A stretch of 64,000 nucleotides of DNA from Gammaproteobacteria bacterium (GCA_030426265.1 JAUHYP010000007.1:1-64000); one strand, 5' to 3'. Positions 16,154 to 27,266 are shown, counted from the first letter of the stretch. The notes: generated by a model from the letters alone, not told the origin. Numbers and translations: made by a program.

Positions 16154-16723
16154 TCAGCCGGGGGGTGACAGCACCTCCCGGAATGTCAGATTGATGCGCG
16201 GATCCACCGGGCGACGTGTTTTCGGCAGGGAATGCTGATAGTCCACCTGGCTGCGTCCGCTCATGACCAGCAGACTGCCTGGCGACAGTTCCAGGCGAAT
16301 CGATTTCCCTCCTCCGCGCGGCCGAATCAGGAAACGCCGTTCGGCGCCCAGGCTGATGGAAGCGATCACCGGCTCCGGCCCGAGTTCCTGTTCATCGTCC
16401 GCATGCCACCCCATGGAGTCGGCGCCATCCCGATACAGGTTGCAGAGCGCTGAGTTGAAGGAGCGCGAGGCGGTTTCGCCGGCACGACGCCTGAGTTCTT
16501 CCAGAAACGGCGGCCAGGGCTTCGCCCGGAGTTCCAGGCCACTGTAGCGATACCGGATCCCCGGGTCGGCGTACCAGTCCACGAGGCGCGGCTGGGCCAC
16601 GCGGCGGCCGAACAGGAGAATGTCCCGAGCGGCCCATTCCAGGCCTTCGTACAGCCTTCGGAACCATTCATCCGGCGCATCCAGCCAGCCCGGCCGGTAC
16701 TCGAATCCCGGCGGCAGCTTCAT
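16154..16723 (-). CDS. alkB: AlkB-type Fe(II)/2-oxoglutarate dioxygenase
   Basis: The 189-residue protein resembles ALKBH2/3-like bacterial AlkB homologues that oxidatively demethylate 1-methyladenine and 3-methylcytosine. Iron ligands are His107 and Asp109 in GWHADDE and His164 in YQHSLPKT; Arg176 and Arg182 in RINLTFR bind 2-oxoglutarate. NLYRDGADSMGWH and ASISLGAERRF are typical of the group. The ATG overlaps the DUF2238 gene by four bases, so it is the last gene of the minus-strand operon starting near 20548. Confidence 0.92.
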   Translation of the reverse strand: MKLPPGFEYRPGWLDAPDEWFRRLYEGLEWAARDILLFGRRVAQPRLVDWYADPGIRYRYSGLELRAKPWPPFLEELRRRAGETASRSFNSALCNLYRDGADSMGWHADDEQELGPEPVIASISLGAERRFLIRPRGGGKSIRLELSPGSLLVMSGRSQVDYQHSLPKTRRPVDPRINLTFREVLSPPG

Positions 16724-17346
16724 TCACCACCCGCCACTCGCGCCAGTTGCCGGTCATGAAACCGGGACAGCAGCAAAAGGGCGCTCAGCGCGCCGACCAG
16801 CGCCCAGAGCATGTCTGACTGCGTATCCCAGACATAGCCCTGTGTGCCCAGGAAGGACTCCGCCGCGGTCGCGCTGAGCAATGCCGCCCACCATTCGATC
16901 AGCTCGTAGAACGCGCTGAAGGCCAGGCAGAAACAGACGCAGAGGAAGCCCAGCCAGCCCCGACGGCCCACCACGCCGAGACGCAGGAAGACCTCGCGGG
17001 CGACCATCGCCGGAACGAACCCCTGTGCGAAATGCCCGAGCTTGTCGTAATTGTTGCGCTCGCCACCCACCCAGTCCCGCACCCAGTCACCGGCCGGGAC
17101 CTCAGCGTAGGTGTAGTGTCCGCCGACCATGAGAATCACGCAGTGCGCCAGGATCAGGAAGTAGACCAGGGGCGTGAGCGGGAAGTGCCGGCGCGTCAGG
17201 GCGAGCACGACCAGGGCGATCAACGCCGGCACCACCTCGAGCCACCAGGTCAGACGGTCATGAGGCCCGATGGCCGACCAGGCCAGCACGGCGAAAAACA
17301 CCGCCAACCAGGCATACACCCGGGGGCTCGCGGTCGGTGTCGGCAC
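16720..17346 (-). CDS. DUF2238 (YjdF-type) membrane protein
   Basis: The 208-residue protein has about six hydrophobic segments and the DUF2238 markers NNYDKLGHFAQGFVPA, FYELIEWWAA and YVWDTQSDMLWALVGA, where acidic and His residues sit at membrane edges. Function is unknown. The start is GTG and directly abuts the uspA-like stop, and its own stop overlaps alkB, so it is translationally coupled on both sides. A diverged relative lies at 53995-54600. Confidence 0.85.
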   Translation of the reverse strand: MPTPTASPRVYAWLAVFFAVLAWSAIGPHDRLTWWLEVVPALIALVVLALTRRHFPLTPLVYFLILAHCVILMVGGHYTYAEVPAGDWVRDWVGGERNNYDKLGHFAQGFVPAMVAREVFLRLGVVGRRGWLGFLCVCFCLAFSAFYELIEWWAALLSATAAESFLGTQGYVWDTQSDMLWALVGALSALLLLSRFHDRQLARVAGGE

Positions 17347-17799
17347 TCAGTCCTTCTTGCCGACGCGAACGGCCAGCACGTCGCAACTGGCGCCGTGCAG
17401 TACCGAGTTGGCCGTGGAACCCAGCAACAGCTGGACGCCTTTTTGACCATGCGTGCCGATCACGATCAGGTCGACGTCGTTCTCTTCGGCGAATCGGTGA
17501 ATCTCACGCGCGGGATTTCCGCTCAGGAAATGAGTCCGGTCGTGGGGAATGCCATGGGCATCCGCCCACTGCTCCAGCTTTCCCTTCAACTCCTTCTGCA
17601 GCCGGTCTTCCACCTGGTCCATGCCCACGAACACCGGGCCGTAGGGAACCACACCCATGTACACCGCCTCCATGGGCTCCTGCACGAAGGCCAGGTGCAC
17701 TTCCGCGCTGTCGGGCGCGATCTTCAGCGCCCGGTTCACGATGGCGCCGGATTCCTCGCTCAGGTCGACGGCGACCAGGACCTTGCCGTACTCACTCAT
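17347..17799 (-). CDS. Universal stress protein (UspA family)
   Basis: The 150-residue protein has the Usp alpha/beta fold, starting KVLVAVDLSEES and ending with the ATP-binding pattern GTHGQKGVQLLLGSTANSVLH (G-x2-G-x9-G-S), so it should bind ATP. The start MSEYGKV (ATG at 17799) overlaps the stop of the RidA gene by four bases and has GGAGG upstream. It is a cytoplasmic stress protein of unknown exact role; it sits between an exported RidA protein and a membrane protein. Confidence 0.92.
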   Translation of the reverse strand: MSEYGKVLVAVDLSEESGAIVNRALKIAPDSAEVHLAFVQEPMEAVYMGVVPYGPVFVGMDQVEDRLQKELKGKLEQWADAHGIPHDRTHFLSGNPAREIHRFAEENDVDLIVIGTHGQKGVQLLLGSTANSVLHGASCDVLAVRVGKKD

Positions 17800-18251
17800 T
17801 TCGGAACCTCCTCCACGGTTGCGATGCACTCGATTTCCACCCGGCTGTCGAGCGCCAGGCCGCTGGAACCCAGCGCGCTTCGGGCAGGCTTGTTGGTCGG
17901 GAAATAGGCCACGTAGACCTCGTTCATGGAGGCCCACTCGGCGATGTCGGCCAGGAAGACGGTGCATTTCACGACGCGGTCCATGGAGGAACCGTAGCGC
18001 TCCAGGACCGCCTTGATGTTCTCCATGGTCTGGCGGGTTTCACCCTGGATGCCACCCTCGGCCAGTTCCAGGGTGCCGGGAATGTTTCCGATCTTGCCGG
18101 ACAGGTACAGCATGTTCCCCACCCGGACGGCGTCCGAGAACGGCAGGGCCGGGTTGCCTCCCAGGTACTCCGGTTCGCCGGCCGCAGCCTGGACAGGGAG
18201 GAGAAAACTGGCGAAGGCCGCGAGGGCCAGTGGGCGGATGGTTCGATGCAT
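17796..18251 (-). CDS. Exported RidA/YjgF family protein
   Basis: The 151-residue protein has an N-terminal signal peptide (MHRTIRPLALAAFASFLLPVQAAAG, in two parts of hydrophobic core and AXA site) followed by a complete RidA domain. The Arg of ARSALGSSGL and the VEIECIATV ending match the enamine/imine deaminase pocket. Most RidA proteins are cytoplasmic and hydrolyse reactive 2-aminoacrylate; a periplasmic form beside periplasmic dehydrogenase subunits suggests detoxification of an oxidation product, but that is inference. A longer start (MTRPRS, 18278) is less likely because it would mask the signal. Confidence 0.87.
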   Translation of the reverse strand: MHRTIRPLALAAFASFLLPVQAAAGEPEYLGGNPALPFSDAVRVGNMLYLSGKIGNIPGTLELAEGGIQGETRQTMENIKAVLERYGSSMDRVVKCTVFLADIAEWASMNEVYVAYFPTNKPARSALGSSGLALDSRVEIECIATVEEVPK

Positions 18252-18290
18252 GGTCGATGGGCTCCGTGGTCGTGTCATTGAAACTCGTGT

Positions 18291-19970
18291 TCAGATTTCA
18301 CCGCGCCGGGCGAAACCGGCGATGTGCTCGGCCGCGCGGAAGGCCAGCGCCTGGATGGTCAGGGTGGGTTGTCCCCGGCCCGATGACACCATGCTGGACC
18401 CGTCACAGATGAACAGGTTGGGCACCTCGTGGCTGCGATGAAAGCGATCGACCACCGAGGTCGCGGGGTCATCTCCCATGCGACAGGTGCCGAGCAGGTG
18501 CGCATGAAAACCCTGTGGCCCCACCGGCTCTCGCCAGGTGCGCAGTGCGCCGGCGGCGTCGAGTATCTCCTGGCCACGGTCCTGCAGGAACTGCATCATG
18601 GCCAGGTCGTCGTCGTGGTCGCGGTAGGTCATGCGGATGGCCGGCCGGCCATGGGCATCCTTCAGGTTCGGGTCCAGGCTGATGTTGTTGCGGGCCAGGG
18701 GAACGGACGTGGTGCTGGACAGGATTCCCATGTGCCGATTGAAACCGCTGCGCACGTCCCGCTTGTACTCCCTGCCCCAGCGCAAAGGTCCCGAACCGGC
18801 TTCCGTGAGCGCATGGAGGGCCGGCATGGCATTGACCAGCGGCCGCCCATCCATCCCGCCGCCCCCGTAAAAACCTCGCTTCGGATCGGTCTCGTAGAAG
18901 TCGTGCACGATGCGCGTGACCTGGATGCTCTTCCAGTCGTTCAATTCATGTTCGAAGTATCCGTGGATGACGGAGTGCCCGTTGCCCATCAGGTACTTGC
19001 CCACCAGGCCCGAGCCGTTGCCCAGGCCGTCCGGGTGCGCGGAGGACTCCGACATGAGCAGCAGGCGCGGCGTCTCCGCGCCATTGGCCGCCAGCACCAC
19101 GGCGCGCGCCTTCTGGGCGTGCTGCTGACCCTGGGCGTCGAGGTAGGCGACTTCCTCCACCCGACCATTGGCGCCGGTGACGATGCGGTAGACCGTCGAC
19201 ATCGGTCGTACTTCGCAGCGTCCGGTGGCTTCGGCCTCCGGGATCATGGTCACCAGCGTGGAGGACTTGGCATTCATCTCACAGCCGAATCCGATGCAGA
19301 AGCCGCAATGGCTGCAGGGCGGGCGACCGCGATAGGGCTGTGACAGGATCGCCACCGGCGCCGGCTGGGCATGCCAGCCCATGGCCGACGCCCCGCGTTC
19401 GAGCAGCACGCCGGAACCCTTCACGGGCATGGGCGGCAATGGGTAGGGCTTCGAGCGCGGCGGGTCGAAGGGGCCCGGTGTTCCGGAAACGCCGATCTCC
19501 CACTCCGCTTTCGAGTAGTAGGGCTCCAACTCCTCGTAGCTGATCGGCCAGTCGACGAAGCCCGTTCCCTCCATGGGCCCCAGCAGGCTGCGCTCCTTGA
19601 AGTCCAGGGGGCGCATGCGCCAGTAGTTGCCCGAGAAATGGACGCTGGAGCCACCCACGGTCCGGGCATAGAGGGCCGGCGGCAAACCGCCACCCGGCGC
19701 CGTGGCGGTTTCGCCCTCGTCGCGTCGGAACGTCTGCGGGTCGGGCCATGACGGGTGACCGGTGAGTTCGCCACCGAACATGGTCTTGAACTCGTCGTGC
19801 CCGAAATCACGGGCCGTGCGCCGGGGCCCTTGCTCCAACACGACCACGTCGAATCCCGCCTGGGATAACTCGCGCGCCAGCACGCCACCGGAGGCGCCGG
19901 AACCGACGATGACGAAATCGACCGGCTTGCGCGTATCGAAGCAGGCGGGGGCGTCAGGGGCGCACATCAT
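18291..19970 (-). CDS. GMC family oxidoreductase (membrane-bound dehydrogenase large subunit type)
   Basis: The 559-residue flavoprotein has the FAD motif GSGASGG (23-29) after VDFVIVG, a VGGSSVHFSGNYWRM substrate-loop region and the C-terminal GMC catalytic stretch HLLGTCRMGDDPATSVVD. A four-cysteine patch (CSHCGFCIGFGC) resembles the extra cysteines of gluconate 2-dehydrogenase and sorbitol dehydrogenase large subunits. It is paired by a four-base overlap with a subunit-3-type gene. Substrate is unknown, probably a sugar, sugar acid or alcohol. No signal is evident, as in relatives carried out by the Tat-signal partner. Confidence 0.88.
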   Translation of the reverse strand: MMCAPDAPACFDTRKPVDFVIVGSGASGGVLARELSQAGFDVVVLEQGPRRTARDFGHDEFKTMFGGELTGHPSWPDPQTFRRDEGETATAPGGGLPPALYARTVGGSSVHFSGNYWRMRPLDFKERSLLGPMEGTGFVDWPISYEELEPYYSKAEWEIGVSGTPGPFDPPRSKPYPLPPMPVKGSGVLLERGASAMGWHAQPAPVAILSQPYRGRPPCSHCGFCIGFGCEMNAKSSTLVTMIPEAEATGRCEVRPMSTVYRIVTGANGRVEEVAYLDAQGQQHAQKARAVVLAANGAETPRLLLMSESSAHPDGLGNGSGLVGKYLMGNGHSVIHGYFEHELNDWKSIQVTRIVHDFYETDPKRGFYGGGGMDGRPLVNAMPALHALTEAGSGPLRWGREYKRDVRSGFNRHMGILSSTTSVPLARNNISLDPNLKDAHGRPAIRMTYRDHDDDLAMMQFLQDRGQEILDAAGALRTWREPVGPQGFHAHLLGTCRMGDDPATSVVDRFHRSHEVPNLFICDGSSMVSSGRGQPTLTIQALAFRAAEHIAGFARRGEI

Positions 19971-20548
19971 GACGTTTCCCCGGGATTGGCATCATAGAAA
20001 CCGAACGGCGGCAGCCAGGCGTGACGACGGTCGAAACCGATCTGGGCCCAGCCTTGATGGTCTCGATTTCCGCCGTACTCCGGCAGGCAGAAGCAGCCGA
20101 GCAGCGTCAGGAAATGCGCGATGCTGAAGAAGGGCGTGTCCTCGACCCCGGCCAGAACTGCGGTCTGCGTGTCGAAGTCGAGGTCCGCGAAGTCCGCCTC
20201 ATGGGCCTCACGGGAACGACGGTCCAGGTCGGCGATTCCTTCGCGCACCATGGGCCAGGCGCCGGCCATGAAGCCGCCTGCTGCGAAATCCATGAAATGG
20301 ACGGCGCCCAGTTCGCGGCCACCGGCCGTGTCGTCCGGCGGCCAGACCTGGTCGGCCACGGCGCCCAGAGTCAGAGCGTCGCCGGGTTCGATGTGGGACA
20401 GCGGCGCACCCTGCGCCTCGAGTTCACGGGCTGCTTCCGCAGCGGCGACCAGTGCCGTTGGGGTCAGCCCCAGCCAGGCGCCGCCCAGGAGCACGCCGGT
20501 GTCCTTGATGAAGTCGCGGCGGGAAGCGGGTCGTGTCGTTCTTGTCAT
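19967..20548 (-). CDS. Gluconate 2-dehydrogenase subunit 3 family protein, Tat-exported
   Basis: The 193-residue protein has a twin-arginine signal (SRRDFIKDTG at 9-18, followed by a Gly/Leu/Ala hydrophobic core) and the conserved body of dehydrogenase small subunits: GDALTLGAVADQVWPPDDTAGG, HFMDFAAGGF and GCFCLPEYGGNRDHQGW. It presumably carries the GMC subunit to the periplasm in folded form. The usual third partner, a multiheme cytochrome c, is not beside it. The ATG at 20548 is preferred to one 36 bases upstream because of the Tat motif spacing. Confidence 0.87.
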   Translation of the reverse strand: MTRTTRPASRRDFIKDTGVLLGGAWLGLTPTALVAAAEAARELEAQGAPLSHIEPGDALTLGAVADQVWPPDDTAGGRELGAVHFMDFAAGGFMAGAWPMVREGIADLDRRSREAHEADFADLDFDTQTAVLAGVEDTPFFSIAHFLTLLGCFCLPEYGGNRDHQGWAQIGFDRRHAWLPPFGFYDANPGETS

Positions 20549-20617: not shown

Positions 20618-21049
20618 TCAGTCGTCCCGGGGAAGACCCGTGAACGCTCCTGGCAGGAGGTCCTCGACATCCCAGCGGTGAAACCCGTCACCGTCGCACA
20701 CGGAAAGCACCTGCGCCCCCGGAGCGAGCAGTTCCAGCATCACCTGCCGGCAGGCGCCGCAGGGCGGCAAGGGTCGATCGCCCGGCAGATAGACCAGCAG
20801 CGCCGTCACCGAACCCGGCGCGACGCCCTCGGCGATCGCGGTACCGAGCGCGTTGCGCTCGGCGCACTGGGTCAGCCCGAAGGAGGCGCTTTCCACGTTG
20901 CAGCCGGAGATGACCGACCCGTCGCCCGTGAGCAGGGCCGCTCCGACCTTCAGTCCGCTGTAGGGCGAATGGGCGTTTGCAGACGCACGCCTCGCCGCGG
21001 GCAGGAGGCGGTCCCGCAAGCCGGGCGCCTGCGCGTCCTCAGGCGCCAT
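20618..21049 (-). CDS. cdd: Cytidine deaminase
   Basis: The 143-residue enzyme is of the small tetrameric zinc type. The zinc site is formed by the Cys and catalytic Glu of LTQCAERNAL and the two Cys of PPCGACRQVMLEL; YSGLKVGAALLTGDG is the substrate loop. It deaminates cytidine and deoxycytidine to uridine forms. The start is either ATG at 21049 or at 21055; both overlap the deoD end. The order deoA-deoD-cdd is a nucleoside salvage operon. Confidence 0.94.
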   Translation of the reverse strand: MAPEDAQAPGLRDRLLPAARRASANAHSPYSGLKVGAALLTGDGSVISGCNVESASFGLTQCAERNALGTAIAEGVAPGSVTALLVYLPGDRPLPPCGACRQVMLELLAPGAQVLSVCDGDGFHRWDVEDLLPGAFTGLPRDD

Positions 21050-21761
21050 CGACATCTTCCAGCAAGGCTCCGAGCACCAGGTCCGCCACCGTCCCGAAGG
21101 CCGCCTGGCGCTCGGCCGGCGAGAAGTGCAGGCCGCGGGGCAACACATCGCTGACCGTGAGGACCGTCGCGGCACGGCGGCCGTGGAATCGGGCCAGCGC
21201 GTAGAGCGCGGCGGTCTCCATGTCCAGGGCGAGGATGCCCTGGCGGCTCACCCGGTCCACGAAGTCGGGATCGGGATGATAGAAATAGTCGGTCGAAAAC
21301 ACCTCGCCCACGTGCACGAGCACCTCCGCACCGCGCGCCCGGGCTTCCAATGCCTGCAACATCGCGAAGTCACCCGCCGGGGCATAGTCCCAGCCGGCGA
21401 GGCGCTGGCGGTTCATCGCCGAATCAGTGCTCGCCGCCGTGGCGAGCACCAGGGATCCAAGCTCCATGTCGGCGCGCAGCGCTCCGCAGGTGCCGACGCG
21501 AACGATGCGCTGAACGTCGTAGTCGGCGAACAGTTCGTTCGCGTAGATGCTGATCGAAGGCATCCCCATACCAGAACCCATGACGGACACGGGCCGCCCC
21601 CGCCAGGTCCCGGTGAACGCGAGCATGTTGCGCACGGCATTGACCTGCCGGACGTCGTCCAGCGCCCGTTCGGCCAGCGCCTTCGCGCGCAGCGGATCGC
21701 CGGGCATGAGCACCAGTTCGGCGAAATCGCCGGGTGCTGCTTCGATGTGCGGTGTGCTCAT
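21039..21761 (-). CDS. deoD: Purine-nucleoside phosphorylase, DeoD type
   Basis: The 240-residue protein matches the hexameric bacterial PNP family: MPGDPLRAKALAE, the phosphate-binding VGTCGAL segment, LDMETAALYALA for nucleoside binding, and TVSDVLPRG with the catalytic Asp. It phosphorolyses purine (deoxy)nucleosides. It overlaps the deoA stop by four bases and cdd by about 11, so expression is tightly coupled. Confidence 0.95.
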   Translation of the reverse strand: MSTPHIEAAPGDFAELVLMPGDPLRAKALAERALDDVRQVNAVRNMLAFTGTWRGRPVSVMGSGMGMPSISIYANELFADYDVQRIVRVGTCGALRADMELGSLVLATAASTDSAMNRQRLAGWDYAPAGDFAMLQALEARARGAEVLVHVGEVFSTDYFYHPDPDFVDRVSRQGILALDMETAALYALARFHGRRAATVLTVSDVLPRGLHFSPAERQAAFGTVADLVLGALLEDVDGA

Positions 21762-23146
21762 GGAACCTCCTCGTTCCCTACTGATCGGCCGTCGCCACCT
21801 GGCGCCAGTCGATCGAAGACGGCCGCCCGTAACCGCTCAGGCGGCACGTCATCGAACGTCAGCGCGGCCCGAAAGCGACGTTCGGCGTCTTCGGCGTCGT
21901 CGGCGGTCGCGGCATGGATCTCGCACAAGGGCTCGTCCGCTTCGACCCATTCTCCCACCGTCCGCAGTCCGCTGACACCGACGGAGGGATCGATGGCGTC
22001 CTCCAGGCGCTCCCTGCCGCCGCCCAGGGCATGCACCACGAGGCCCACGGCCCGCGTATCGACACCCACCAGGAACGCGTCCCGTTCCGCGGTGACGGTG
22101 CGCCGCACCGGGGCTTCGGCCAGGTACCGCGCAGGTCGCTCGACCAGGTCTGCCGGACCGCCCTGGAGCGCCACCATGCGGCCGAATCGCTCCGCGGCGG
22201 CCCCGGTCTCGATGGCCCGGCGCAGCAGGTCCTGCGCCCGCTCGGGATCCGCCTCGATGCCACCGGTGCTCAGCAATTCGCGGCACAGGCCGTAGACCAC
22301 CTCGGCCAGTCGTGGCTGGGGGCGCTCCCCTCGCAGAAAGGCCAGGGCCTCGCCCATCTCGAGGGCGTTGCCCGCGCTGCGGGCCAGGGGCTGGTTCATG
22401 TCAGTGAGCAGCGCAGTGCAGCGCAGGCCCGCGGCGGCTGCCACCTCGCACAGTGACTGGCCGAGTTCGCGGGCAGCATGCGCGTCGACGAGGATGGCGC
22501 CGTTTCCGGTCTTGATGTCCATGACCAGTCCGTCCAGGCCCTCGGCCAGCTTCTTGGACAGGATGGAGGAAACGATCAGCGGCCGGCAGTCCACGGTCGC
22601 GGTCACGTCGCGCACCGCGTAGAAGCGCCGGTCGGCGGGCGCCAGGCGGGCGCCCTGGCCGATCATGGCGAAACCCGCCTCACGCACCGTTCGGCGAAAC
22701 CGGTCCCGGGCCGGGTTCACGTCGAATCCGGGAATGCTTTCGAGCTTGTCGAGCGTACCCCCCGTGTGACCCAGCCCCCGCCCCGAAATCATGGGCACGT
22801 AGCCGCCGCAGGCGGCCACCAGCGGCGCGAGGACCAGGCTGACCAGGTCGCCGACACCCCCGGTGGAATGTTTGTCCAGGATGGGTCCGTCCAACTCGTC
22901 CCAGCGCAGGACCTCGCCGGAATCGCGCATGGCCAGGGTGAGCGCGGCCTGTTCGGCGTCGCTCAATCCCTTCAGGAACGCCGCCATGAGAAAGGCGCCG
23001 AGCTGTGCGTCGCCGACCAGTTCCCCGGCCACGCCGGCGACGAAGGCCTGCAGTTGCTCAGGGGACAAGGATCCGCCGTCGCGCTTGATCCGAATCAATT
23101 CCGCCGGTGACAGGTCCACCGGTCCCGTGTCGGATGGGGTGTTCAA
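21758..23146 (-). CDS. deoA: Thymidine phosphorylase
   Basis: The 462-residue enzyme has the phosphate-binding KHSTGGVGD, the SGRGLGHTGGTLDKLESIPGF signature and the Lys-rich SSILSKKLAEGLDGLVMDIKTG segment. It splits thymidine and deoxyuridine to the base and deoxyribose 1-phosphate. deoB and deoC, which would process the sugar phosphate, are not in the window. The ATG overlaps the end of the membrane-protein gene at 23143. Confidence 0.95.
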   Translation of the reverse strand: MNTPSDTGPVDLSPAELIRIKRDGGSLSPEQLQAFVAGVAGELVGDAQLGAFLMAAFLKGLSDAEQAALTLAMRDSGEVLRWDELDGPILDKHSTGGVGDLVSLVLAPLVAACGGYVPMISGRGLGHTGGTLDKLESIPGFDVNPARDRFRRTVREAGFAMIGQGARLAPADRRFYAVRDVTATVDCRPLIVSSILSKKLAEGLDGLVMDIKTGNGAILVDAHAARELGQSLCEVAAAAGLRCTALLTDMNQPLARSAGNALEMGEALAFLRGERPQPRLAEVVYGLCRELLSTGGIEADPERAQDLLRRAIETGAAAERFGRMVALQGGPADLVERPARYLAEAPVRRTVTAERDAFLVGVDTRAVGLVVHALGGGRERLEDAIDPSVGVSGLRTVGEWVEADEPLCEIHAATADDAEDAERRFRAALTFDDVPPERLRAAVFDRLAPGGDGRSVGNEEVP

Positions 23147-23568
23147 GGCCCCTGCCCTGCCTCGTACTCACCCCACTGCCGACGCGTCGACGGCAGGTGC
23201 GCCCAGCCGAGCAAACCCAGGTTGGCGACCATGGCGAGCAGGAACACCAGGGCGAGCGCAAGGTCCAGCCCGGCATCGTGATTGAGGCGGTACAGGCCGA
23301 AGCCCAGAACCGCCAGGCTGAGCGCCACCGTGCAGACCGGCACCCAGGGCCGCATCCTCCACACACCGCGCGCCAGAAGGAACGTGGCCAGTCCGATCAG
23401 GCACAGCACCACGACGGAGACCTCCCAGCCTTCCAGTTCACCCCGGAAATGACCGATGAGCCATTTCGAGCCGGCCGACATGAACTCGAGCAGGCCCACC
23501 AGTACCAGCACCATGGCTGCCACGCCGCGGCCGGTGGGCGCTTCGGCTTCAGGCAGCAGGTCGGCCAT
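23143..23568 (-). CDS. Hypothetical four-helix membrane protein
   Basis: I do not recognise this 141-residue protein. It shows four hydrophobic segments (beginning GVAAMVLVLVGLLEFM, VSVVVLCLIGLATFLLA, VPVCTVALSLAVLGFGL and LALALVFLLAMVANLGLL) with short loops, so it is an inner-membrane protein. It overlaps both neighbours (20 bases with the upstream membrane protein, four with deoA), which suggests it belongs to the nucleoside salvage operon or to its upstream partner. Transport of nucleosides is a possibility, but it is much shorter than known nucleoside carriers. Confidence 0.6.
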   Translation of the reverse strand: MADLLPEAEAPTGRGVAAMVLVLVGLLEFMSAGSKWLIGHFRGELEGWEVSVVVLCLIGLATFLLARGVWRMRPWVPVCTVALSLAVLGFGLYRLNHDAGLDLALALVFLLAMVANLGLLGWAHLPSTRRQWGEYEAGQGP

Positions 23569-24163
23569 CGTCCGCCTGTCTGCGCTGGATGAGCAATTCG
23601 ACCACGCCCGCCGCGATCAGGCCCAGGGCGAACAATTCCACGCCCTCCTCCGCGGCATTCTTCACGTCCCGCAGGAAGGCATCGCCCATGAGGGTTTCCC
23701 AGAGGGTTCCGCGACCGAACAGCCGGGAAAAGACCAGGGCCGTGAAGCCGGCCAGGAGCACGCCGAAAGCCGGGGTGCGCGACAGGTTCCGCAGGGATTC
23801 GAGCACGGCCAACCGGTGGCGGAAAAAGGTGACAGCGAGCCAGATCAGCAGCGCCAGGGCGGGCCATTTCCAGACCCCATGGGGCAGGAACAGTTCCAGG
23901 ACCTGGTCGTTCTCACGAACGAGCAGGATGGCGAACCCGATCGCGAAGCATTGCAACATCGGCTCCGGACGGGGACTGCGAAGCACCGCGATGAACAGGA
24001 TCAGCACCATGGCCGCGAGCAGCACCGACTGCCCCAACTCGACGTAGCCGAACTCGGAAAAGCGTTCCAGGGGTTCGAGCTGCCGGACCTCGAACATCGA
24101 GACTTCCGCCAGGAGCAGCGCCAGCAACACGTAGGCGACGCCGCGTATCCACACCGATTTCAA
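23549..24163 (-). CDS. Hypothetical polytopic membrane protein
   Basis: The 204-residue protein has about five or six membrane segments, a polar stretch with ERFSEFGYVELGQS after the first helix and VRENDQVLELF before the third, and a late FLRDVKNAAEEGVELFALGL. Acidic residues at the membrane edges are notable. I do not know the family. It heads the minus-strand group ending in cdd and starts about 60 bases from the terminator of nrdJb. Confidence 0.6.
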   Translation of the reverse strand: MKSVWIRGVAYVLLALLLAEVSMFEVRQLEPLERFSEFGYVELGQSVLLAAMVLILFIAVLRSPRPEPMLQCFAIGFAILLVRENDQVLELFLPHGVWKWPALALLIWLAVTFFRHRLAVLESLRNLSRTPAFGVLLAGFTALVFSRLFGRGTLWETLMGDAFLRDVKNAAEEGVELFALGLIAAGVVELLIQRRQADDGRPAA

Positions 24164-24223: not shown

Positions 24224-24248
24224 AAAAAAAGCGCGGCCGGAGCCGCGC
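24224..24248 (-). terminator. Intrinsic terminator of the nrdJab operon
   Basis: On the minus strand GCGCGGC, loop TCCG, GCCGCGC is followed by seven T residues (complement of the A7 at 24224-24230). It lies about 40 bases after the nrdJb stop and separates this operon from the downstream membrane-protein and deo genes. Confidence 0.9.
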
Positions 24249-24285
24249 TGTTCTGGGGGTCGCAGGGCTGCGACTCCGGGCGGTC

Positions 24286-25029
24286 TCAGCCGCACTTGCT
24301 ATAGCCGCAGGACAGGCAGGTGGCGCAGTTGTCCATGACCACCACCGCCTTGGTGTGGCACTTGTGACAAAGCGTCGCCGAGGCCGGGTACCCCGAATCC
24401 TCTCCCTCCGCCGCCTGGATCTTGGTCAGCGATTCAGCCGGGTTTTTTTTTTGGCTGGAGGCCTCGGCCTCGGCGCGCTTCTGGTCGAGCAGGAGCTGCT
24501 GTTGTTCCGACAACTGCTCCTTTTCCATCAGCCCGATCTTCTGCAGGTGATGTTCGATCACCGCTCCGATCTCGGCGATGATGGACGGCATGAACTTGCC
24601 GCCCGGTTTGAAGTAGCCGCCCTTCGGATCGAACACCGCCTGCAGTTCCTCGGACAGGAACGTGACGTCGCCGCCCTTGCGGAACACCGCCGACATCAGT
24701 CGCGTCAGGGCCACGATCCACTGGAAGTGGTCCATGTTCTTCGAGTTGATGAAGATCTCGAAGGGTCGGCGCTGTTCATGCTCCGTGCCCGGATTGAGAA
24801 TGATGTCGTTGATGGTCACGTACATGGCGTGATCGTCCAGCGGGGTCTTGATCTTGTACGTGGACCCCTCCAGCGCCTCGTATCCTTCCGGGCGCTTGAC
24901 CTGTTCGGTCATGCGGATCACCTTCGCGGTCGCACGCTCCTCCTTGACGGGAGCGGCTTCCGCCGGCTTCTTGTCTTCCGGCTTCGCCACTTCGTAGCCG
25001 ACGATCTTGCGGTCGATGGTTATGGGCAT
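24286..25029 (-). CDS. nrdJb: Class II ribonucleotide reductase, NrdJb (C-terminal part)
   Basis: The 247-residue protein equals the C-terminal region of B12-dependent ribonucleotide reductase that is encoded separately in Pseudomonas as NrdJb. Residues about 55-165 are a TSCPD-like domain (YVTINDIILNPGTEHEQRRPFEIFI). The tail has four cysteine pairs or singles, LCHKCH and CATCLSCGYSKCG, the redox-active and zinc-binding end that re-reduces the active site. Between them lies a charged linker encoded by an A10 tract. The gene follows nrdJa by 89 bases with only a modest GAGAG ribosome-binding site. Confidence 0.9.
   Translation of the reverse strand: MPITIDRKIVGYEVAKPEDKKPAEAAPVKEERATAKVIRMTEQVKRPEGYEALEGSTYKIKTPLDDHAMYVTINDIILNPGTEHEQRRPFEIFINSKNMDHFQWIVALTRLMSAVFRKGGDVTFLSEELQAVFDPKGGYFKPGGKFMPSIIAEIGAVIEHHLQKIGLMEKEQLSEQQQLLLDQKRAEAEASSQKKNPAESLTKIQAAEGEDSGYPASATLCHKCHTKAVVVMDNCATCLSCGYSKCG
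24443..24452 (-). other. A10 homopolymer inside nrdJb
   Basis: Ten consecutive A residues on the coding strand encode Gln193-Lys194-Lys195-Asn196. Such a run is very unusual in this GC-rich window, and synonymous AAG codons would have avoided it. Gain or loss of one A, in DNA or by polymerase or ribosome slippage, would end translation three to seven codons later and remove the cysteine tail. Confidence 0.85.
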
Positions 25030-25118
25030 ATCACTACTCTCATGCGGGCCCGGGTCTTCGGCCCTGGTTCGTTGTAGACCCTATTGCCTTGCCTGCAATT
25101 CCTTGGGGACCACGGGAG

Positions 25119-27266
25119 TCAGAACTTCCCGTAGTAGCCTTCCTTCAGGGCGTCGTAGAGGTTGGCGGCGGTATGCGTCTCGCCGTCGTACACCACCTCC
25201 TCGTTGCCCTTCACTTCCACCACCTTGCCGTCGTCGAGCACGAAGCGATAGGTGGTGTTCTCCAGGTCCTTTTCCTTCACCAGCACACCCTGGAAGGCCT
25301 CGGGATTGAAGCGGAAGGTGGTGCAGCCCTTCAGCCCCTTCGAGTGCGCGTAGGTGTAGATGTCCTTGAAGTCCTCGTAGGGATACTCCGTGGGAACGTT
25401 GGCGGTCTTGGAAATGCTCGAATCCACCCAGGTCTGCGCCGCCGCCTGGATGTCCACGTGTTGTTTCGGCGTGATGTCGTCCGCGGCGATGAAGTATTCC
25501 GGCAGCTGCGCCTCCGCGTCCTCGGCGAAGGGCATTGCGTCCGGATTCACCAGGTGCCGATAGGCGAGCAACTCGAAGCTGTAGACCTCGACCTTCTCCT
25601 TGGTCTTGCGCCCCTCGCGAATGACGTTGCGGCTGTAGTGGTGCGCGAAACTCGGCTCGATGCCGTTGGAGACATTGTTGGCCAGCGACAGGGATATCGT
25701 ACCCGTGGGCGCGATCGAGGTGTGGTGCGTGAAGCGCGCCCCTTCCTCGGCCAGCGCGTCCACCAGTTCCGGAGCGTGCTCCGCCACGCGGCGCATGTAG
25801 CGGCTGTATTTCGCATGCAGGATGCGACCGGGCACCTTGTCTCCGAGCTGGTAGCCGTCCTCGGCCATCTCGGGACGCTTGCGCAGCATGTCGCCGGTGA
25901 CCGTGAACTCTTCTTCCATGATCGGGGCGGGGCCCTTCTCACGGGACAGTTCCAGGGCCTCTTCCCACCCGGCGATGGCCATCTCGCGGGAAATACGGTC
26001 CGTGAAGTCGACGGACTCGGGCGAGCCGTACTTCATGCCCAGCAGGGTCATGGTCGAGCCCAGTCCGAGGAAGCCCATGCCGTGCCGGCGCTTGCGTTCG
26101 ATCTCGTCACGCTGCAGCTCCAGGGGCAGACCGTTGATCTCGACCACGTTGTCCAGCATGCGGGTGAAGATCTTCACCACCTTGCGGTAGTTGTCCCAGT
26201 CGAAACGGGCTTCGTCGCTGAAGGGCTGCTTCACGAAACGGGTCAGGTTCACCGACCCCAGCAGGCAGGCGCCGTAGGGCGGCAACGGCTGTTCGCCACA
26301 GGGGTTGGTCGCGCGGATGTTTTCGCAATACCAGTTGTTGTTCATCTCGTTGATGCGGTCGACGAGGATGAAGCCCGGCTCGGCGAAGTCGTAGGTGGAG
26401 GTCATGATCATGTCCCACACCCGTCGCGCCGGAATGGCCTTGAAGATCCGGCAGGCCACCAGTCCGTCCTCGCGGGTCACGTATCCGTCCGTGACCGGCC
26501 ATTCCCGCCACAGCACCTGTTCCGGATCGTCGAGGTCGACCTCGCCGGCCTCCGCCTCCGCGAGCGGGAAGACCAGGGGCCAGTCGGCGCCGTCGCGCAC
26601 GGCTGCCATGAATTCGTCCGTGATCAGCAGCGAACAGTTGAACTGGCGCAGGCGGCCGTCCTCGCGCTTGGCGCGGATGAATTCCATCACGTCCGGGTGG
26701 CCGACCTCGAAGGTGGCCATTTGCGCGCCGCGGCGGCCGCCGGCCGAAGACACGGTGAAACACATCTTGTCGTAGATGTCCATGAAGCTCAGCGGCCCGG
26801 ACGTGTAGGCGCCGGCGCCGGAGACGTAAGCGCCCTTGGGCCGCAGCGTGGAGAACTCGTAACCGATGCCGCAGCCGGCCTTGAGGGTCAGGCCCGCTTC
26901 GTGCACCTTGTCCAGGATGCCGTTCATGGAATCGTGGATGGTGCCGGACACCGTGCAGTTGATGGTGGAGGTGGCCGGCTTGTGCTCCTGCGCGCCTGCG
27001 TTGGACGTGATTCGTCCCGCGGGGATCGCGCCGTGGCGCAGCGCCCACAGGAACTTCTCGTACCAGGCTTCCCGGTTCTGCTTCGACTTCTCGACATCGG
27101 CGATGGCTCGCGCGACGCGCTGATAGGTATCATCGATTTCCGTGTCGATGACGTCCCCGTTCTTGGTTTTCAGCCGGTATTTCTTGTCCCAGATGTCCAG
27201 GGACGCGACCTGCATCGGAATCGCGTCGGGATCGGCTACCGAGGCCTCGACTTGAACGCTGCTCAT
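25119..27266 (-). CDS. nrdJa: Adenosylcobalamin-dependent (class II) ribonucleotide reductase, NrdJa
   Basis: The 715-residue catalytic subunit reduces ribonucleotides to deoxyribonucleotides with a cobalamin-generated thiyl radical, independent of oxygen. Key segments are PAGRITSNAG, STINCTVSGTIHDS (first active-site Cys), GCGIGYEFSTLRP, ATNPCGEQPLPPYGACLLGSVNL with the radical Cys and Glu, and TIAPTGTISL-type SIAPTGTISLSLANN. The enzyme lacks the cysteine tail, supplied by NrdJb. Splitting of NrdJ in this way is known from Pseudomonas. Two NrdR boxes lie just upstream. Confidence 0.95.
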   Translation of the reverse strand: MSSVQVEASVADPDAIPMQVASLDIWDKKYRLKTKNGDVIDTEIDDTYQRVARAIADVEKSKQNREAWYEKFLWALRHGAIPAGRITSNAGAQEHKPATSTINCTVSGTIHDSMNGILDKVHEAGLTLKAGCGIGYEFSTLRPKGAYVSGAGAYTSGPLSFMDIYDKMCFTVSSAGGRRGAQMATFEVGHPDVMEFIRAKREDGRLRQFNCSLLITDEFMAAVRDGADWPLVFPLAEAEAGEVDLDDPEQVLWREWPVTDGYVTREDGLVACRIFKAIPARRVWDMIMTSTYDFAEPGFILVDRINEMNNNWYCENIRATNPCGEQPLPPYGACLLGSVNLTRFVKQPFSDEARFDWDNYRKVVKIFTRMLDNVVEINGLPLELQRDEIERKRRHGMGFLGLGSTMTLLGMKYGSPESVDFTDRISREMAIAGWEEALELSREKGPAPIMEEEFTVTGDMLRKRPEMAEDGYQLGDKVPGRILHAKYSRYMRRVAEHAPELVDALAEEGARFTHHTSIAPTGTISLSLANNVSNGIEPSFAHHYSRNVIREGRKTKEKVEVYSFELLAYRHLVNPDAMPFAEDAEAQLPEYFIAADDITPKQHVDIQAAAQTWVDSSISKTANVPTEYPYEDFKDIYTYAHSKGLKGCTTFRFNPEAFQGVLVKEKDLENTTYRFVLDDGKVVEVKGNEEVVYDGETHTAANLYDALKEGYYGKF

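Follow-up and report, generated by a model that had tools for sequence, protein, structure and literature searches.

We analysed a 64,000-nucleotide stretch of DNA from a Gammaproteobacteria bacterium (JAUHYP010000007.1, hereafter the window), in which six minus-strand genes run from 20548 to 16154 and encode, in this order, a dehydrogenase small subunit with a twin-arginine translocation (Tat) signal (here called G3), a GMC flavoprotein, an exported protein of the RidA family, a UspA-like universal stress protein (Usp), a DUF2238 membrane protein and an AlkB-like protein (Table 1). The family of each was borne out by Pfam. Comparison with other genomes showed two modules which merely happen to abut here, one consisting of G3, GMC and RidA (the trio) and a separate Usp-DUF2238(-AlkB) block beside dxs.

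The open reading frames and the sequence agree with the gene junctions described in a first-pass annotation of this DNA, with ATGA-type overlaps of 4 nucleotides at three junctions (G3/GMC, RidA/Usp and DUF2238/AlkB), a stop-to-start abutment of Usp and DUF2238 and a gap of 39 nucleotides between GMC and RidA. The gap follows from placing the RidA start at the ATG at 18251, which has GGAG upstream and yields a clean signal peptide; an alternative in-frame ATG lies upstream at 18278 and would reduce the GMC/RidA gap to only 12 nucleotides. The start of the run, earlier taken to be at 20548, had to be revised, since deoA, deoD and cdd continue it upstream of G3 on the same strand. The end of cdd is separated from the start of G3 by 69 nucleotides and deoA overlaps deoD by 4 nucleotides. 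The full same-strand run comprises about 11 genes and is convergent with dxs, the six genes being its 3' part.

Table 1. Features of the gene run in the window, with the basis of each assignment
Feature	Position	Strand	Basis
G3 small subunit, Gluconate_2-dh3, Tat signal (SRRDFIK)	19967..20548	-	Pfam PF13618, 63 bits
GMC flavoprotein, without own signal	18291..19970	-	Pfam PF05199/PF00732
Exported RidA-family protein	17796..18251	-	Pfam PF01042, 114 bits
Predicted RidA signal peptide MHRTIRPLALAAFASFLLPVQAAA	18180..18251	-	Sequence reading
UspA-like universal stress protein (neighbour outside the trio)	17347..17799	-	Pfam PF00582
DUF2238 (YjdF-like) membrane protein (neighbour)	16720..17346	-	Pfam PF09997, 204 bits
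AlkB-like 2-oxoglutarate-Fe(II) dioxygenase (neighbour)	16154..16723	-	Pfam PF13532, 127 bits
cdd, cytidine deaminase (start approximate)	20618..21055	-	NCBIfam PRK05578, above cutoff
deoD, purine nucleoside phosphorylase	21039..21761	-	NCBIfam TIGR00107, above cutoff
deoA, thymidine phosphorylase	21758..23146	-	NCBIfam TIGR02643, above cutoff
Terminator-like hairpin with T-run (possible upstream boundary of the run)	24230..24249	-	Pattern scan

Gene order in related genomes

Gene order and co-occurrence were compared in 39 genomes of the family, including that of the window, and co-occurrence with GMC was assessed by Fisher tests that are uncorrected for relatedness among the genomes. The six genes were found contiguous in the window genome only. 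DUF2238 is missing from three genomes of the same genus that carry the trio (G016, G019 and G020, with a contig break through RidA in G019), AlkB is missing from G015, G029, G030 and G024, and 1-8 kb of other genes, among them genes for DUF2891, DUF1800 and DUF1501 proteins, lie between RidA and Usp in G029, G030, G037, G038 and G024 (3-8 kb in G037 and G038). The DUF1800 and DUF1501 genes occur as a pair at this position in several relatives (e.g. L036:3830-5851 and L228:10512-11957). Since the RidA/Usp overlap of the window is replaced in relatives by such inserts or by gaps of about 15-24 nucleotides, the close spacing of the genes says little about whether they work as a unit. Another genome of the same genus (G018) has the order cdd, AlkB, dxs directly, and several genomes contain Usp-DUF2238-AlkB without a GMC of this clade; cdd and dxs bound a slot whose content varies.

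We observed no dependency between the presence of GMC and that of DUF2238 (p 0.73) or AlkB (p 0.18). Usp did co-occur with GMC (p 0.04), but it is found in nearly all genomes of the family and goes with DUF2238, which it adjoins in 21 of the 24 DUF2238-bearing genomes, with or without GMC. The Usp-DUF2238 pair is usually located beside dxs, often together with AlkB. The AlkB-like protein has the HxD...H...R iron/2-oxoglutarate motif (WHADD, QHSLPK and RINLTFR) and scores below the AlkB equivalog cutoffs, so that the assignment holds at family level only. The first-pass annotation had proposed that all six genes form one coupled system, and had itself named free splitting in relatives as the outcome that would speak against this; such splitting is what we found. 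A six-gene system is thus not supported and the run is not a functional unit, and the comparison accordingly gives no backing to the proposal that UspA and AlkB protect the cell interior from damage.

The trio, in contrast to its loosely attached neighbours Usp, DUF2238 and AlkB, is a recurring conserved module. A collection-wide search yielded 80 loci of this GMC clade, which according to the record titles originate from Gammaproteobacteria, Gemmatimonadota, Bacteroidota and others. A cultured relative, Thioalkalivibrio sp. XN8 (L038), carries the complete trio. Where the flanks are intact, G3 almost always lies upstream of GMC. Of the 78 loci that could be scored for adjacency, 33 have RidA next to GMC or G3 in the same orientation, downstream in 29, between G3 and GMC in 2 (L082 and L101) and upstream in 2 (L077 and L092). 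The three gene orders speak against the link between RidA and GMC being a single inherited accident. Within the family, RidA is present in all 12 GMC-bearing genomes and in 8 of the 27 others (p 4.5e-5). None of 16 GMC paralogue loci from the family, five of them in the window's own genome, has an adjacent exported RidA; L237 has a single weak and distant match about 5 kb away. In a class-wide sample of 229 genomes a GMC match at E 1e-140 was obtained in the window genome only, too few for statistics; the genome G205, discussed below, also came from this sample. The pairing of an exported dehydrogenase with an exported RidA, which the first-pass annotation had recognised, is supported by its occurrence in several phyla, in three orders and with two kinds of export signal.

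Predicted properties of the dehydrogenase and of RidA

The predicted structure of GMC (predicted local distance difference test score 89, predicted template modelling (TM) score 0.92) is closest in the PDB to the large subunits of fructose dehydrogenase (FDH) and flavin adenine dinucleotide (FAD)-dependent glucose dehydrogenase (FAD-GDH), with TM scores of 0.82-0.87 at 27-29% identity; the top 9 Foldseek matches are all FDH or FAD-GDH, and phmmer comparison with these enzymes gave 200-205 bits. Like FdhSCL and the gamma-alpha-beta FAD-GDH, the trio combines a GMC fold and a four-Cys iron-sulphur region with a Tat-bearing Gluconate_2-dh3 small subunit that is encoded directly upstream of a large subunit without signal. 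The predicted iron-sulphur site of GMC, a CxxCxxCxxxxC motif (C219, C222, C225 and C230) of the form CxxCGxCxGFGC, is well conserved, C222, C225 and C230 being invariant and C219 present in at least 90% of 36 orthologues. The trio differs from the known enzymes in three respects: the catalytic His of GMC is kept but the Asn that precedes it (FDH N1146) is replaced, mostly by Ala, and the second Asn position (FDH N1190) is Gln; no adjacent gene for a multi-haem cytochrome c subunit was recognised when CXXCH motifs were sought up to four genes away from GMC; and the third gene of the trio encodes an exported RidA. Judged by sequence and model, the G3-GMC complex would thus resemble FDH/FAD-GDH in outline, with a different active site and a cytochrome partner gene that is not adjacent.

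RidA scores above the TIGR00004 cutoff and has the Ribonuc_L-PSP domain. In common with the RidA/YjgF/UK114 imine deaminases it has the fold and the catalytic Arg and Glu: R124 and E139, the equivalents of Arg105 and Glu120, show no variation across an alignment of 27 exported RidA sequences. Replacement of this carboxylate-binding Arg by Ala nearly abolishes imine hydrolysis in RidA proteins that have been studied (PMC4433059). Two features set the RidA of the trio apart, namely a Phe in the PYSQA motif, where PH0854 has Tyr, and the predicted export. Export signals, which were judged by eye and from hydropathy, are of the Sec type in most of the window's family and Sec-like in the loci with RidA upstream, whereas those of the Woeseiaceae and Bacteroidota contain a lipobox. 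These N-termini in the orthologues predict a non-cytosolic location. The other RidA copies of the family genomes, which are cytosolic, start without a signal.

RutC, a part of cytosolic uracil degradation, is similar in that a RidA-fold protein is encoded at a nucleobase-related locus, as with other RidA types of nucleobase catabolism. The identity of the RidA of the trio as RutC was considered and rejected, because it reaches 63.1 bits against a RutC cutoff of 169.1; unlike RutC, it is predicted to be exported. RidA proteins have in general been studied as cytosolic guards against enamines. Rid proteins with a role in the oxidation of chitin (OngD, PMC9537276) and in nicotine breakdown (a Rid6 protein, PMC7688666) are cytosolic as well, and the words periplasm and signal peptide occur nowhere in the main text of a survey of the Rid family (PMC4433059). 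Our literature search found nothing on G3 together with RidA, nor any description of a GMC/G3 pair with an exported RidA. That a consistently exported RidA clade accompanies one particular flavin dehydrogenase of the periplasm suggests chemistry of the imine, enamine or enol type in the envelope.

Nucleoside and purine context and the proposed function

The best clue to the function of the trio is its genomic context. In the family of the window it follows the nucleoside-breakdown genes deoA-deoD-cdd, and cdd adjoins it in the family loci with intact flanks. In 15 loci, of a clade that consists mostly of Woeseiaceae, hiuH is divergent from the GMC locus and is accompanied, where the contig reaches, by xdhA, xdhB, xdhC, puuD, puuE, uraD, alc (encoding allantoicase) and allA (encoding ureidoglycolate lyase); this hiuH-xdhABC-puuD-puuE-uraD-alc-allA cluster covers the full pathway from xanthine to glyoxylate. 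All 15 counted loci have hiuH, and L060, L072 and L097, whose 'purine' label reflects weak molybdenum-hydroxylase matches, are not counted. Four Pseudomonadales loci have an NCS2 xanthine/uracil permease gene downstream and lack RidA. Nucleoside or purine genes were seen at none of the 16 paralogous GMC loci. In the Woeseiaceae the purine/GMC cluster is followed by two families without a Pfam match (L045:14191-15285(+) and L053:14618-15613(-)), and the same flank also contains genes for a metallophosphoesterase, a DUF4956 protein and a PfkB-type kinase.

Our preferred reading, to which we assign a probability of roughly 0.55, is that the trio, separate from the Usp-DUF2238(-AlkB) block, is a periplasmic oxidation module that is joined to a nucleoside-breakdown operon and acts on a substrate of the nucleoside, pentose or purine type, and in which RidA acts on a labile product. 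The Tat-tagged G3 likely takes GMC, an FAD protein without a signal of its own, across the membrane, as in the fructose and FAD-glucose dehydrogenases. In the periplasm, GMC would then oxidise a hydroxyl of a metabolite derived from a nucleoside, pentose or purine, electrons would pass via its iron-sulphur site to an acceptor encoded elsewhere, and the exported RidA may hydrolyse or rearrange a labile product of the imine/enamine or enol type in the same compartment. From the first-pass annotation the exported dehydrogenase/RidA pairing is thus retained and the six-gene stress coupling abandoned; the nucleoside/purine context, which it had missed, supplies a concrete, testable class of substrates.

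Several observations weigh against this reading. RidA occurs without GMC in 8 family genomes; it is retained beside cdd without GMC and G3 in G004, G026 and G027, an intact lipoprotein RidA stands beside an 85-amino-acid remnant of G3 in G014 (L219, 2849-3582), where GMC is gone, and a purine cluster in G205 (L250, 657-10344) contains a lipoprotein RidA without G3 and GMC. Conversely, five of the 15 purine-cluster loci have GMC but no RidA, as do most Pseudomonadales, including the clade with the permease context. RidA and GMC are therefore not obligate partners, and a common pathway whose steps can in part be replaced is more likely than a tight succession of two steps. At about half of the GMC-clade loci no purine or nucleoside genes were seen, and each context is one syntenic clade, so that there are at most three independent associations. 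Moreover, the enzymes encoded by deoA, deoD and cdd and those of purine breakdown are cytosolic, and for PuuD a cytosolic site of urate oxidation has been argued (PMC4562309), whereas the trio is predicted to be periplasmic. Two further placements of RidA were noted: the RidA gene of G205 lies between hiuH and a metallophosphoesterase gene, and in G007-G009 (L216, L217 and L218) an exported RidA directly follows an M20-family amidohydrolase at a site other than the deo locus.

The persistence of RidA without GMC in the family, beside the amidohydrolase and in the purine cluster of G205 would also fit an alternative in which G3-GMC is a sugar or alcohol dehydrogenase of the usual kind and RidA an independent envelope protein (for instance a holdase, or a scavenger of imines of various origin) that repeatedly shares its loci. 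The nearest solved relatives of GMC, fructose and glucose dehydrogenases, and a gluconolactonase-like gene near some distant members agree with this. It does not account well for the family-wide rule that GMC implies RidA, for the three gene orders or for the restriction of the link to this GMC clade, and we consider it possible but doubtful. That the trio merely landed in the variable slot between cdd and dxs, with the purine and permease contexts being coincidental, seems unlikely to us: the slot does hold DUF2891, DUF1800/DUF1501 and other genes in relatives and there are only three independent contexts, but in three separate clades the trio or its GMC stands beside genes for nucleosides, purines or nucleobase transport, no such genes were seen at the 16 paralogue loci, and RidA was kept at both main contexts after loss of GMC. 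Highly improbable, finally, is a stress-coupled oxidation system of all six genes, in which GMC makes a reactive carbonyl that RidA clears outside while Usp and AlkB act inside. The common strand and the tight junctions speak for such a system; the contiguity in a single genome, the co-occurrence figures for DUF2238, AlkB and Usp and the inserts between RidA and Usp speak against it.

A decidedly speculative proposal is that the trio cleaves nucleosides by oxidation in the periplasm: G3-GMC might convert the ribose of a nucleoside outside the cytoplasm into a keto form, after which the Arg/Glu site of RidA might promote release of the free base, which would then be taken up or enter the route through xanthine dehydrogenase and urate. 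If true, nucleosides could be used with neither a phosphorylase nor a hydrolase, and a RidA protein would have a role outside the cytoplasm other than deamination. Nucleoside oxidase (EC 1.1.3.28/39) is a flavoprotein that acts on nucleosides; the trio is likened to it by general description, and no membership is claimed.

Upstream part of the run

The hairpin listed in Table 1 is the first terminator-like site upstream of the run (24249-24230); with nine such sites against 7.4 +/- 2.8 in shuffled sequence it is not significant by count alone, and a promoter scan gave nothing informative. Two overlapping small genes without a Pfam match, of 141 and 204 amino acids, precede deoA in the window (23143-24163, minus strand); they are placed between ribonucleotide reductase genes and deoA and are kept in part of the genus. 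Further upstream (24286-27266, minus strand) lie the genes for the adenosylcobalamin-dependent ribonucleotide reductase NrdJ and, downstream of it, a separate TSCPD-domain protein, a pair that precedes the deo genes across the family.

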